DNA of 41,878 bases from Methanoregula sp. (GCA_022710385.1 JAKLGZ010000006.1:1-41878), one strand, 5' to 3'; shown: positions 30,382 through 40,861, numbered from the stretch's first letter. The notes: generated from the sequence alone by a model not told the origin. Numbers and translations are program-made.

Positions 30382-30797
30382 GGTATCGCTCCGTGCTGCA
30401 AGCCAAATGTACCTGATCGGTTCGACGTCGTGGATAATAATACTACCAGAACCCACGCCCGGAAAAAGAAGGGAGCAGTCTGGAATCAACGAGGTCGGAG
30501 GAATGGAGGAGGTCCTGTCCTCCTTCTTGTTCTCTTGGCAGATCCCGTTTTTTGTTCCCGCCTCCTGGAGCCAGCGGGTGACAACAAGGGTTCTCAGGAG
30601 GATCCGTTTGTCCCCATTGAGGACGAACATAGAAAAAAGTATTTACATAATGTAATGTGTACTATACATTATCTACAGTAAATTTGACAATCGGCACCAT
30701 TCCGATCGTTCAAGGAAGGGGGAGTCCGCCGGAAAACTGGCACCCCCGAACCGGGCTGAAAATGAGGAATGGAGTGAGCTAAGGGAGACTAACGACA
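30382..30797. other. Divergent promoter region between argG and the Cthe_2159-like operon
   Basis: 416 nt with no gene. It contains the argG TATA-like element (about 30434-30442, minus), and an AT-rich island at 30636-30690 with nested inverted repeats that may hold the promoter or operator of the plus-strand operon. AAGGGAG before 30798 is the ribosome-binding site. Confidence 0.5.
30644..30672. promoter_or_regulatory. AT-rich inverted repeats, candidate promoter/operator
   Basis: TACAT-A-ATGTA (30644-30654) is palindromic, and ATAATGT (30647-30653) pairs with ACATTAT (30666-30672). TATACATT around 30664 could be a TATA box, which would give the operon a leader of about 105 nt. Only sequence pattern supports a regulatory role. 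Confidence 0.35.
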
Positions 30798-33263
30798 ATG
30801 AAAAGCATGACTGCATTGATCCTGGCATTCATCATAGCCGTCACCTTTACCGGCTGGGTGAATGCGGAGACAGCTGGAACTGATTCCGGAGTTACTTCTG
30901 TTACTCTGAAAGGCAGTTCGATCACTGTTGAGGGAAGCGGGGCGACGGTTGATGGCACCACCCTCACCATCACATCCGGTGGCACCTACACCATCAGCGG
31001 CACTTTGAAGGATGGCCAGATACGGGTAGATGCAAAGGACGAGGAAACGGTAAAGCTTGTCCTGAACGGAGCAACCATTGCCTGTTCTGCGAGTGCTCCG
31101 ATCTATGTCGTCAACGCAGAGAAAACGGTGATCACCCTTGCAGAAGGAACGAAAAATTATGTCACTGATGGAGATTCGTTTATCGCTGAAGATGCAGAAT
31201 CGGATGAACCCGATGCAGCACTATTCACTAATGACGATCTCACGATCAACGGCGATGGTTCACTCACCGTCTCTGCAAGCTATAATCACGGTATTTCGGT
31301 CAAGGACGACCTCAGGATTAACGGAGGACAGATTACCGTGATTGCGGTGAATGATGGTATCAAGGGAAGAGACTCTGTCACCGTCAGGGACGGGACCATC
31401 ACCGTGAAAGCAGGCGGGGACGGAATCCAGTCCAACAATGATGAAGATGCCGAAAAAGGCATTATCTCCATCGAGGGTGGAACGATCGCTGTTACCGCTG
31501 GAGAAGATGGTATCCAGGCGGAAACCAGCCTGAGTATCAGTGCCGGTGAAATCACGGTCACCTCAGGGGGAGGCAGCGGCATGGGGAGTACCTCAGATAC
31601 GTGGGGTCCACGGGGCATGGAACCATCCGAAACAGAAAGTGATACCGGGAGCGCCAAGGGGCTGAAAGCCGGGGGTGCCCTCACGGTATCAGGCGGCACG
31701 ATCACCCTCGACTCATCCGATGATTCGATCCACTCGAATGACAGTATGACTATTAACGGTGGCACTATCACGGCCTCCTCAGGGGATGACGGCATACATT
31801 CAGATTCCACCCTGGAGATTAACGGGGGGGACCTGCGCATTACGAAATCCTACGAGGGTATGGAAAGTGCCGTCATCACCCTGAATGCCGGAACGATGCA
31901 TATCGTTGCCAGCGATGACGGGATAAACATCATCAGCAGCGATGACGCCTCTGTGGTACCTGGTCGGCCTGACCAGAATGCCTTCACTGCTACCGGTGCC
32001 AATTACCTGCATATCAACGGCGGGTATATCGTGATCGATGCCAATGGAGACGGGATTGATGTCAATGGGCCGATCGAGATGACCGGTGGCACCGTGATCG
32101 TCAACGGTCCGACAAACAACGGCAATGGTGCACTGGATTACCTGGGCATCTTCAGGATGACAGGGGGGTATCTCCTCGCAGCAGGCAGTTCAGGTATGGC
32201 ACAGGCCCCTGGCACCTCATCGACCCAGTATGCGGTAATGCTGACATTTGCATCAGCCCAGCCGGCAGGCACGTTGGTGCATATCGAATTCGACGATGGC
32301 AAGGACATCCTCACCTTCATGCCGACGAAGACTTACCAGTCAATCGTACTCTGTTCACCCGACCTGGAGAAGGGCGGGACCTACGTTGTGTATACCGGAG
32401 GCAAATCAACCGGTTCGGTGACTGACGGCCTCTACTCCGGGGGAATCTATACCCCCGGTACGGAAATGACCAGCTTTACTATAGCAGGTATCGTGACGAA
32501 CGCCGGGGCATCCTACAACCAGAATCCAGGTACCAATCCAGGTTCAGGCACGAATCCCAGCATGAATCCAGGTACGAATCCACGGGGAAAACCGGGTACC
32601 CCCGGGGTCCCCACCCTTGCACCTTCAGGGACGGGGACCCTCTCTGTGACTTCTTCCCCGAGGGGGGCAAGTGTCTCCCTTGACGGTGCGTATAAAGGGG
32701 TGACCCCGGTCATCATCACCGGGGTCTTGAGTGGGACACACCAGATCACCGTCACCAGCCCCGGATACCAGGACTATTCAACCGGGGTATCGGTCACGGC
32801 CGGTCAGATGGCAAGTGTGGTCGCGTCACTGAAGGATCAGACCGGGTCGACCTCCACTTCCTTGACAACTCCAACTACTGCCCCGACAAAGGCACCACCC
32901 GGCACGGAGACCGGGACCCTTTCGGTGACCACCACCCCGGGAGGGGCCACGGTCTCCCTTGACGGTACCTACAGGGGACTCTCCCCTCTTACCCTGACTG
33001 GTGTTTCTGACGGATCCCACGAGCTGAAGATCTCCAAAACAGGGTACCAGGACTTCCACACCAGCGTGATGGTGACTGGAGGGAAGACCACTACCGTATC
33101 AGCACCACTCACCAGTAGTGACATTGGCTTATCACAGCCCGCCAGCTCGTTCCGGACAAATCACCCAGTCAATACCTTGTTTCCCCGGATGATATCAGCG
33201 TCATCGGTACTGATTGAAGAGGGCAGCGCCCTGCTCCGGTCGTTGTATCAAGGGTTCGGATGA
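30798..33263 (+). CDS. Secreted Cthe_2159-like carbohydrate-binding beta-helix protein with two PEGA domains
   Basis: 821 residues. A signal peptide (about 1-24, ending VNA) leads into a long right-handed beta-helix (about 30-560) with the marks of the PF14262 Cthe_2159 family: GTLKDGQIRVDAKDEETVKLVLNGA-like opening, APIYVVNAEKTVI, HGISVKDDLRINGG and repeated GGTITV-type strands with Asp/Asn-rich turns (SSDDSIHSND) that could bind calcium. The founding member binds pectin-like polygalacturonate. A Pro/Asn/Gly linker precedes PEGA domain 1 (about 610-680) and PEGA 2 (about 705-775), small modules for surface attachment. No membrane anchor is visible. ATG 30798 has AAGGGAG; the stop overlaps the next start by 4 nt (ATGA). 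Confidence 0.82.
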   Translation: MKSMTALILAFIIAVTFTGWVNAETAGTDSGVTSVTLKGSSITVEGSGATVDGTTLTITSGGTYTISGTLKDGQIRVDAKDEETVKLVLNGATIACSASAPIYVVNAEKTVITLAEGTKNYVTDGDSFIAEDAESDEPDAALFTNDDLTINGDGSLTVSASYNHGISVKDDLRINGGQITVIAVNDGIKGRDSVTVRDGTITVKAGGDGIQSNNDEDAEKGIISIEGGTIAVTAGEDGIQAETSLSISAGEITVTSGGGSGMGSTSDTWGPRGMEPSETESDTGSAKGLKAGGALTVSGGTITLDSSDDSIHSNDSMTINGGTITASSGDDGIHSDSTLEINGGDLRITKSYEGMESAVITLNAGTMHIVASDDGINIISSDDASVVPGRPDQNAFTATGANYLHINGGYIVIDANGDGIDVNGPIEMTGGTVIVNGPTNNGNGALDYLGIFRMTGGYLLAAGSSGMAQAPGTSSTQYAVMLTFASAQPAGTLVHIEFDDGKDILTFMPTKTYQSIVLCSPDLEKGGTYVVYTGGKSTGSVTDGLYSGGIYTPGTEMTSFTIAGIVTNAGASYNQNPGTNPGSGTNPSMNPGTNPRGKPGTPGVPTLAPSGTGTLSVTSSPRGASVSLDGAYKGVTPVIITGVLSGTHQITVTSPGYQDYSTGVSVTAGQMASVVASLKDQTGSTSTSLTTPTTAPTKAPPGTETGTLSVTTTPGGATVSLDGTYRGLSPLTLTGVSDGSHELKISKTGYQDFHTSVMVTGGKTTTVSAPLTSSDIGLSQPASSFRTNHPVNTLFPRMISASSVLIEEGSALLRSLYQGFG

Positions 33264-34087
33264 TTATGGCGATAGGACAGCGGGAGACGGTCATGCCGTA
33301 TAATCCAGGTGAAAAACCTGCGCTCTGCTCGGTGATCAGCGAATGTGAGAGTATCTCCCTCTCCGAGCTGGAAGAAACAAAAGCCCAGCTCCTGACCCGG
33401 GTGGAGAGCAAGCACCTGATGACTCTTGGGCAGTGCAGGGAACTCGTGCGGACACTGGCTGGCTCCTACAGGATACTCGAGATACAGGGTATCAAGATCG
33501 GGAGATATGAGACTATGTACTATGATACGCCCTCGTTTCTTACCTACCTGGAGCATCATAACAGGAAAGGCAACCGGTTCAAGCTGAGGCTCCGGCATTA
33601 CGATACGTCGGATGAGACCTACCTCGAAGTAAAAAAGAAGACCAACAAGGGATCCACCGAAAAGAGCCGTATCAGGACATCCTGGTCTACTTCCGGATTC
33701 TCACCCGACCAGGTGGCGTTCCTCAGGGCAGCATTTCCATACGATTGCCGGGCATTTCATCCCGTTCTCTGGACAGTGTATAACAGGTGTACCCTCGTCT
33801 CCAAAAAAAACCCCGAACGAATCACCCTGGATACCGGAATAATGTTTGGAGACGGGGAGAAGGTGATCTCGTACCCTGACCTCGTGATCGGGGAGATCAA
33901 GTACGAAAAGGGAGTGAAGAACTCCCCGGCACTCCTGGCGCTTCATGGGATGAGCATCAGGAAGAGGGCGTTTTCCAAGTACTGTATCGGAGTATCGCTC
34001 CTGTATTCCTGGCTGAAGCATAACCGGTTCAAGGAGAACCTGCTCTTCCTCTCAAAATTATCCGGCGGAGGTACGGCCGCATGCTGA
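33260..34087 (+). CDS. VTC-domain protein (polyphosphate polymerase-like)
   Basis: 275 residues. The core has the VTC/CYTH tunnel-fold signature: RVESKH (R47, E49, K51), YYDTPSFLTYLEHH (88-100), RFKLRLRHYD with alternating basic residues (R106, K108, R110, R112), TYLEVKKKTNKG with E123 and K125, and EKSRIR. In yeast Vtc4 these residues bind ATP phosphates and metal during polyphosphate synthesis. Bacterial members of this small cytoplasmic type sit next to DUF4956 proteins as here, and their product is not established. It starts inside the stop of the previous gene (ATGA overlap) and overlaps the next by 7 nt, so co-translation is likely. Confidence 0.85.
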   Translation: MIMAIGQRETVMPYNPGEKPALCSVISECESISLSELEETKAQLLTRVESKHLMTLGQCRELVRTLAGSYRILEIQGIKIGRYETMYYDTPSFLTYLEHHNRKGNRFKLRLRHYDTSDETYLEVKKKTNKGSTEKSRIRTSWSTSGFSPDQVAFLRAAFPYDCRAFHPVLWTVYNRCTLVSKKNPERITLDTGIMFGDGEKVISYPDLVIGEIKYEKGVKNSPALLALHGMSIRKRAFSKYCIGVSLLYSWLKHNRFKENLLFLSKLSGGGTAAC

Positions 34088-34665
34088 GCTTGTCGATCGG
34101 GTTGTTCCTTGCCGGATTTATCATCAACTTCCTGTCGGCGTTCGTTATCATCAGGCTGATCTACTACCCGAGAGGGCGGTGCAACAATTTTGCCTTTACG
34201 TTCCTTGCCTTCAATACCGTGATCTATTTCATCATGGGGTTGTTCACGAGCATCGAATTGTCAATTGCGGCGGGGTTTGGCCTGTTTGCCTTGTTCTCGA
34301 TCCTCCGGTACCGGACCGAGACCGTCCCGATCCGGGAGATGACCTACCTGTTCGTGATGGCAGCCCTGCCGATCCTGAACGCTGTACTCTGGGGATTGTC
34401 CTCCTATGCCCTGCAACTGGTAGTGGATCTTCTCGTTATCGGAACCCTCTGGGTCCTTGACAAGGAATGGGGATTCAACCGTTCACAGTTCCAGATGACC
34501 GTGCGGTATGAGAAGATCGACCTGATCAAGCGGGAGAAGAAGGACGAGATGCTCGCTGATCTCCGCGAACGGACCAGCCTTCCCGTCCAGGATTTCGAGA
34601 TCCTGAGCATCGACTTCCTCCGGGACTGTGCAGAGATCAGGATCACCTATTCAGGAGAAGTATAA
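34081..34665 (+). CDS. DUF4956 family membrane protein
   Basis: 194 residues. Four predicted membrane segments in the first 120 residues surround the family signature GLFALFSILRYRTETVPI followed by REMTYLF. The C-terminal 75 residues are cytoplasmic and charged (DLIKREKKDEMLADLRERT). DUF4956 proteins are commonly encoded beside VTC-domain genes, as here, suggesting a membrane partner of the VTC enzyme; a transport or anchoring role is inference. ATG 34081 lies within the end of the VTC gene (7-nt overlap). It is the last gene of the operon, facing carB. Confidence 0.87.
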   Translation: MLSLSIGLFLAGFIINFLSAFVIIRLIYYPRGRCNNFAFTFLAFNTVIYFIMGLFTSIELSIAAGFGLFALFSILRYRTETVPIREMTYLFVMAALPILNAVLWGLSSYALQLVVDLLVIGTLWVLDKEWGFNRSQFQMTVRYEKIDLIKREKKDEMLADLRERTSLPVQDFEILSIDFLRDCAEIRITYSGEV

Positions 34666-34967
34666 GGTCTCATTTTTTCGGAGATCGCAATTACAATACC
34701 TCCTACCTCTCCAGAATTTTCATGTAAGATACGTAAAAAATCACCTGGTTCACCTTTTAGACAGATGCATAGATGAGAAATAATACTGGAGGAATTTTCA
34801 CAGGAGCTCCTTTGACTACCGTTCGGTCGAGAGTAATGGATGAAGTGCCGGAGGCATTGGTGATGGAAAAAATACCTGATTCACCATTGAGAAACATGCC
34901 TGCAGGACGATACTTCGGTACTACTTTCGTAAAAAGCAGAATTGAAAAGTGAATCGGGTTCCGTTGA
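34666..34967. other. Convergent intergenic region with hairpin and imperfect repeat
   Basis: About 300 nt between the converging DUF4956 and carB genes. It contains a hairpin AGTGCC-GGA-GGCATT (34844-34858) sharing the 13-mer TGCCGGAGGCATT with the hairpin at 23458-23480, and an imperfect direct repeat (about 34735-34775 and 34865-34906; AAAAAAT.ACCTG.TTCACC). No gene is seen. Confidence 0.45.
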
Positions 34968-40114: not shown

Positions 40115-40861
40115 ATGACGGGAATGAGGACAGGCATTATCTGCATACTCGTCATTGTGGCCATGGTATGCCTTTCCGGATGCATCTCCCCCCCTGAGAA
40201 GAATACCGGTTCAGCAGCTCAAGGGGGCACTGCCGCTTCAAAAGGGGGTATCAGCGGAGCAAAGGCGACCCCGACTGCTGCCGGGCCAGACGGAGGGAGC
40301 ACAACGACCACCACACCGACCCCGGCTCCCGGTGAAGCCGGGTATCTGGTCCCTGCCACACCATACCCGACAGAGGCCATCCCGGCATCGACCATGTCAG
40401 GCACCCGCCTCCCCGACATTACTCCCTCCCCGGTAGAATACATGGGTATTTACTATAGCACCCTCGCACTGAAGAACAACCGGACCGCCTTCACATACGA
40501 CCTCCAGAAGCCTCCCCTCGTGATCGAGATCTGTTTCTCACCGAATATGACCACCCGGACGATCTGGTATGACAGTAAATACACTGACCGGGGAGAGAAG
40601 ACAGAGACCGTCACCACCATCAGCCCCGCTGCATGGTTTGAGGTGACCGTCCGCGAGCCTGCTTCAGGGCAGATCGTCGCAAAGGAAGGATTTGGACGGG
40701 GATACAGTACCGATACCGGAAAAGATCTCACCATCCGGTCCCAGGGAAAGTATTTGATCGAATTTTCCGGGAATGAACTCTCCGCACAGGTCCAGATCAG
40801 GGTGCCAAAAGAAGGCAATCCTGCGGGATCGCCCCTGAAAAAGATGGCCTGTACGTTCTGA
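40115..40861 (+). CDS. Putative lipoprotein of unknown function
   Basis: 248 residues. The signal peptide ends in a lipobox (VCLSGC, Cys about 23). Residues 25-105 are a low-complexity Thr/Pro/Gly/Ala linker that probably spans or extends from the cell envelope. Residues 108-240 are a beta-rich globular domain (YYSTLALKNNRTAFTYDL, then VIEICFSPNMTTRTIWYD) ending in a strand-rich IEFSGNELSAQVQIRV. I cannot name the family, though lipoproteins of this layout are frequent in Methanomicrobiales. Its promoter gives a nearly leaderless transcript. Monocistronic, converging on the MobA-like gene. Confidence 0.75.
   Translation: MTGMRTGIICILVIVAMVCLSGCISPPEKNTGSAAQGGTAASKGGISGAKATPTAAGPDGGSTTTTTPTPAPGEAGYLVPATPYPTEAIPASTMSGTRLPDITPSPVEYMGIYYSTLALKNNRTAFTYDLQKPPLVIEICFSPNMTTRTIWYDSKYTDRGEKTETVTTISPAAWFEVTVREPASGQIVAKEGFGRGYSTDTGKDLTIRSQGKYLIEFSGNELSAQVQIRVPKEGNPAGSPLKKMACTF

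Follow-up and report, generated by a model that had tools for sequence, protein, structure and literature searches.

A near-obligate VTC-DUF4956 gene pair with alternative secreted partners and an upstream dyad in a Methanoregula operon

Genes of the types treated here occur in the cotH-PPP-DUF4956-DUF4832 set, which has been described as accessory to Gram-positive pel clusters (Whitfield et al. 2020, PMC7112168). The Clostridium perfringens locus NELoc-2 also holds VTC-domain genes close to a CotH gene, and each of these VTC genes has a membrane-protein gene behind it (PMC2879425). Here we analyze a three-gene operon at 30798-34665 of a 41,878-nucleotide (nt) stretch of Methanoregula sp. DNA (GCA_022710385.1 JAKLGZ010000006.1:1-41878; the whole stretch is called the window below), which codes for a Cthe_2159 protein, a VTC enzyme and a DUF4956 membrane protein:

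30798-33263, + strand, secreted Cthe_2159 beta-helix protein with two PEGA domains, 821 aa (Pfam, PDB match, termini read from the sequence)
33260-34087, + strand, VTC-domain triphosphate-tunnel enzyme, 275 aa (Pfam, alignment to Vtc4, AlphaFold/Foldseek)
34081-34665, + strand, DUF4956 membrane protein, 194 aa (Pfam, AlphaFold, conservation)

As in the pel accessory set, a poly-phosphate-polymerase-type (VTC) gene adjoins a DUF4956 gene and is accompanied by a secreted-type partner. However, the pel sets are bacterial, lie beside pel and use CotH as partner, whereas the window has Cthe_2159, with no CotH match in its genome, and its operon is contiguous not with pelDEADAFG but with argG, an ABC exporter and carAB. 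The NELoc-2 arrangement differs in that the pair is duplicated and belongs to a clostridial pathogenicity locus, and its membrane proteins, annotated there as tubulin/FtsZ, would be at most candidate DUF4956 proteins. With the yeast VTC complex (Vtc4/Vtc3/Vtc1) the operon shares the triphosphate-tunnel polymerase fold, the active-site residues and the tie between enzyme and membrane component, but it is without an SPX or Vtc1-type domain and its membrane partner is the unrelated-looking DUF4956. Finally, the first protein has the same beta-helix domain as Clostridium thermocellum Cthe_2159 (PDB 4peu/4phb) but exceeds it in length, having an additional Cthe_2159-like stretch as well as two PEGA domains. 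Going by its family, it may bind polygalacturonate-type glycans.

The original prediction, made from the sequence alone, had described an archaeal operon of three tightly coupled, overlapping genes. Recomputed, the three open reading frames fall exactly at the coordinates above, with a 4-nt overlap (ATGA) between the Cthe_2159 and VTC genes and a 7-nt overlap between the VTC and DUF4956 genes, the latter being retained at most methanomicrobial loci. The overlapping frames on one strand agree with a single transcription unit, the host is indeed an archaeon, a Methanoregulaceae methanogen, and Pfam confirms the Cthe_2159, PEGA, VTC and DUF4956 identities that had been assigned.

The tightly coupled core of this operon is the VTC-DUF4956 pair only, which is near-obligate in two domains of life. 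Among 129 genomes of the methanomicrobial class, VTC is found in 30, DUF4956 in 31 and both in 29 (Fisher 2e-25), and the two genes are adjacent in 29/29. The same count over 249 genomes from the class of an Anaerolineae genome gives 48, 50 and 46 (7e-43), and by their listed coordinates VTC and DUF4956 lie on one contig and <=5 kb apart in 44/46. Both genome sets were compiled manually from search listings. The methanomicrobial co-occurrence (Fisher 2e-25) with adjacency every time indicates that the arrangement is not due to chance. A scan of GTDB species genomes for DUF4956 of the window type found 67 loci, distributed over Methanomicrobiales, Chloroflexota, Acidobacteriota, Deinococcota, Bacteroidota and Actinomycetota, with VTC alongside in 64/67. 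Control searches found VTC, DUF4956 and CotH all present in Methanosarcina acetivorans. Thus the expectation that these families co-occur elsewhere, including in several bacterial phyla, is borne out, and functional coupling of the set is supported. The tight coupling claimed for all three genes holds for the VTC-DUF4956 core and fails for Cthe_2159, which adjoins that core in a minority of genomes, being one of the two secreted proteins that mainly alternate as its partner.

The Cthe_2159 protein of the window matches the Pfam family Cthe_2159 (PF14262) over profile positions 1-262 of 262 (E=4e-100), PEGA (PF08308) in two stretches (E=6e-35) and the solved Cthe_2159 structure at residues 14-259 (E=5e-49). 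Its N-terminus, as read from the sequence, is signal-peptide-like, and the same reading revealed no C-terminal membrane anchor. Its parts are as follows:

30951-31793, + strand, Cthe_2159 domain, residues 52-332 (PF14262)
about 31788-32105, + strand, second Cthe_2159-like stretch (PF14262)
32634-32834, + strand, first PEGA domain, residues 613-679 (PF08308)
about residues 705-775 of the 821-aa protein, + strand, second PEGA repeat (PF08308)

A CotH kinase gene occupies the place of Cthe_2159 in most methanomicrobial VTC-DUF4956 operons. Specifically, the 29 methanomicrobial genomes with the pair contain CotH in 21 cases, full-length Cthe_2159 in 12, both in 4 and neither in 0, so that Cthe_2159 is present in 8/8 genomes without CotH versus 4/21 with it (p=1e-4). 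The 46 pair genomes of the Anaerolineae class have CotH in 34, Cthe_2159 in 22, both in 12 and neither in 2 (at least one partner in 44/46), with Cthe_2159 in 10/12 genomes without CotH versus 12/34 with it (p=0.005); both p values are optimistic, as the genomes are related. The partner also switches inside genera, being CotH in G036 and Cthe_2159 in G106 of genus g19, and CotH in G082 and Cthe_2159 in G023 of genus g16. CotH had no match in the window's own genome, which is 74% complete, or in its 98%-complete relative G037. Both families occur without VTC-DUF4956 too (for example CotH in genus g13). CotH and Cthe_2159 are thus the two main alternative secreted partners of the pair.

Several other genes adjoin the pair. 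All nine Bryobacterales loci (L130-L138) have a large secreted-type EF-hand protein 3' of DUF4956 (e.g. L132:6552-9377), and these proteins carry a C-terminal pyruvate-phosphate-dikinase ATP-binding domain (PPDK_N) that is unexpected outside the cell. In Bacteroidota, the gene after DUF4956 at eight loci (L142, L143, L146, L147, L148, L150, L152, L153) codes for a DUF2490 protein whose N-terminus resembles a signal peptide and which may reside in the outer membrane. An actinobacterial metagenome-assembled genome has a Na+/Pi (sodium/phosphate) cotransporter gene (PF02690) directly after DUF4956 (L155:4841-6019). Small lipoproteins of one family are also found repeatedly beside VTC-DUF4956 in methanomicrobial genomes (L053, L054, L056, L057, L059, L062, L063, L105) and, at L210, beside a dyad site of the kind described below, with no Pfam match for the one member tested.

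Upstream of the operon, a MAFFT alignment of the three operon-carrying genus members G000, G037 and G129 revealed a block that is near-identical in all three, with diverged flanks, and that contains an inverted repeat:

30629-30690, + strand, promoter-region block of about 60 nt
30644-30675, + strand, 32-bp dyad TACATAATGTA-N10-TACATTATCTA within this block

The dyad occurs once in the window, where 0 occurrences are expected. When the window site alone was used as query against upstream regions from other genera, which removes the circularity of consensus scoring, matches of at least 21/32 were found in 11/50 regions upstream of CotH/VTC/Cthe_2159 operons versus 0/368 controls (p=3e-11). Markov-resampled versions of the same regions gave a mean of 0.2 and a maximum of 2 matches at the threshold where 11 were observed, and we therefore reject the explanation that the dyad is an artefact of AT-rich promoters. 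With a symmetrised consensus, built partly from sites that it then scored, all sites of at least 21/32 in 837 kb fall upstream of CotH/VTC/Cthe_2159 operons. A pattern search of 51 family genomes located the dyad upstream of Cthe_2159 genes that are not linked to the pair, in G024 and in G395, as well as near other secreted-protein genes. In each of G024, G058 and G081 it precedes the VTC-DUF4956 operon and also the Cthe_2159 gene that lies elsewhere in that genome, which argues for a common function that is independent of gene order. Judged from these patterns, the dyad is probably a transcription factor binding site. Sites resembling the dyad precede further secreted-protein genes at L204, L209 and L210, the L210 site being beside a small lipoprotein. 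At L204 and L209 the proteins behind the site are related and S-layer-like (L204:1547-2392, L209:1785-3032), and the regulon therefore probably extends beyond this operon. Nothing relevant to a methanogen phosphate operator was found in the literature searched.

The VTC protein matches Pfam VTC (PF09359) with E=3e-26, and VTC-family profiles match Vtc4, at E=3e-14 for the broader profile. Profiles were needed for this, as single-sequence PDB searches with the VTC and the DUF4956 proteins gave no match. The AlphaFold model (predicted local distance difference test, pLDDT, 86.7) has Vtc4 3g3r as its best Foldseek match (E=1e-12, 15% identity). Vtc4 residues K200, R264, R266, K281, R361, R373, E426, K428 and K458, numbered by inference from chain offsets, align to the conserved window residues K51, R110, R112, K127, R176, R187, E212, K214 and K240, respectively, and the invariant R47 is also counted among the Vtc4-type active-site residues. 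A triple mutation of three of these positions, R264A/R266A/E426N, inactivates yeast VTC (PMC9911596). As read from this alignment, the polymerase-type active site is intact, and the nucleotide binding without which the original prediction would fall is consistent with the retained Vtc4 residues.

The DUF4956 protein matches its Pfam family over the full length (PF16316, E=1e-50, profile 1-169 of 169). Its AlphaFold model (pLDDT 81) predicts five long helices and, at the C-terminus, a small alpha/beta domain whose likeness to ACT domains in a fold search was weak and not significant. The order of its motifs might hint at kinship with MgtC. Two arginines, Arg76 and Arg78, show full or almost full conservation, and the model together with the positive-inside rule would place them at the cytoplasmic end of helix 3.

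The whole set is a presence/absence cassette in the window's genus:

30453-34948, strand not assigned, accessory cassette, absent at argG-carB from the close relative G109

By BLAST, the argG-carB junction of G109, whose carB protein is 99% identical, matches the window to 30452 and resumes at 34949, with 61 bp of other sequence in place of 4.5 kb. Seven genus members (G109, G132, G131, G134, G018, G009, G069) have argG and carB as neighbors without VTC-DUF4956 between them, and in G037 and G129 this site holds the three genes as it does in the window. The operon is flanked by argG and the ABC exporter at one end and by carB and carA at the other, and these neighbors all run on the strand opposite to it. 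No Rfam families or tRNAs were found near the operon. Elsewhere in the window (40115-40861), a gene for a 248-aa protein with no confident family match adjoins a pyruvoyl-dependent arginine decarboxylase.

The gene pair, its two alternative partners, the shared upstream dyad and the polymerase-type active site are computed results, and a tunnel enzyme that has the Vtc4 residues and is coupled to both a membrane and a secreted protein points to the logic of the yeast complex turned outward. In yeast, polyphosphate is thought to reach the membrane channel along a basic route (PMC9911596). By analogy, we infer that VTC would act in the cytosol as a triphosphate-tunnel enzyme and, like Vtc4, use ATP to build a phosphate polymer, and that DUF4956 would probably take the growing chain at its arginine-bearing cytoplasmic mouth and pass it outward, a role like that of the yeast membrane part, which works towards the vacuole. 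Outside the cell, the polyphosphate would serve the exchangeable secreted protein, here the Cthe_2159 beta-helix and elsewhere the CotH kinase. The operon thus probably makes a phosphate polymer for the cell surface and perhaps exports it; for the whole reading, as a regulated unit of VTC synthesis, DUF4956 export and an exchangeable surface protein, we put the probability at roughly 45%. The envelope and phosphate genes that follow the pair (EF-hand with PPDK_N, DUF2490 and the Na+/Pi cotransporter) were counted in its favor.

A number of observations weigh against it. The near-invariant Glu49 stands where Vtc4 has Thr198. Triphosphatase members of the triphosphate tunnel metalloenzymes (TTMs; PMC4641920) carry an acidic residue there, and the VTC protein may therefore be a hydrolase. 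Pfam finds only VTC and DUF4956 in the two proteins, with SPX and Vtc1-type (DUF202) domains absent. Neither sequence nor fold searches of the PDB with DUF4956 yielded a significant match, and an outward pore in this protein is a prediction. The literature searched yields no biochemistry for any prokaryotic VTC or DUF4956 protein, and the p values for co-occurrence of the pair are optimistic because the counted genomes are related.

The same Glu49, which gives the window protein an RxExK motif resembling the ExExK of hydrolytic TTMs, would suit a pair that is instead a membrane sensor or regulator, with the tunnel enzyme binding or hydrolysing tri- or polyphosphate, the C-terminal domain of DUF4956 signaling to surface-protein deployment and no polymer exported. 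The weak, non-significant likeness of that domain to the regulatory ACT domains and the histidine-kinase genes that adjoin VTC-DUF4956 in Acidimicrobiales point the same way. Most active-site positions are nevertheless polymerase-like as in Vtc4 (R47, R176, K214, K240), including the counterpart of Lys458, a residue whose counterpart is dispensable in a plant triphosphatase (PMC4641920), and we regard a sensor as unlikely. A role as accessory to glycan phosphorylation, in which VTC gives activated phosphate, DUF4956 belongs to the transfer machinery, CotH phosphorylates a sugar or protein and Cthe_2159 binds exopolysaccharide or a surface glycan, is suggested by the place of the set beside Gram-positive pel clusters, where cotH-PPP-DUF4956-DUF4832 is contiguous with pelDEADAFG in streptococci, clostridia and bifidobacteria (PMC7112168); Pfam moreover annotates the Cthe_2159 family as carbohydrate-binding. 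This is about equally doubtful, as VTC-DUF4956 is widespread without glycan-synthesis genes nearby, and among those neighbors of methanomicrobial operons that were classified, which is some only, no pel or glycan-synthesis genes were recognised.

It is also conceivable that Cthe_2159 is a passenger, a secreted adhesin that shares a cassette with VTC-DUF4956 and a promoter-type sequence with many surface proteins. The accessory nature of the set in the genus and the dyad-like sites upstream of other secreted proteins (L204, L209, L210) would fit this. Against it stand the alternation between CotH and Cthe_2159 in two unrelated classes and the dyad common to unlinked Cthe_2159 genes and VTC-DUF4956 operons in G024, G058 and G081, with 0/368 among controls, and we consider a passenger quite improbable. 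To return to the polymer reading, a more far-reaching and speculative form of it would make VTC-DUF4956 a widespread prokaryotic polyphosphate maker-exporter that feeds secreted phosphotransferases (CotH, the Bryobacterales EF-hand/PPDK_N proteins) in the ATP-poor surroundings of the cell, or gives Cthe_2159-type beta-helices a surface polymer, coordinated in methanogens by the dyad factor; this too we think unlikely. Nothing relevant to a link between CotH and polyphosphate was found in the literature searched.

The cotH-PPP-DUF4956 sets beside Gram-positive pel genes and the occurrence of VTC with CotH in C. perfringens were already known, and in the open-access literature searched we found neither the archaeal operons nor the shared dyad described, nor Cthe_2159 in the role of alternative partner. 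Prokaryotic VTC and DUF4956, with a joint function that has been obscure so far, thus emerge as a near-obligate pair with a CotH or Cthe_2159 partner. This turns a vague gene neighborhood into testable questions, namely whether prokaryotic VTC makes polyphosphate, whether DUF4956 exports it and what the phosphate source of secreted CotH-type kinases is, for which Methanosarcina acetivorans, with VTC, DUF4956 and CotH, is a genetically tractable host.

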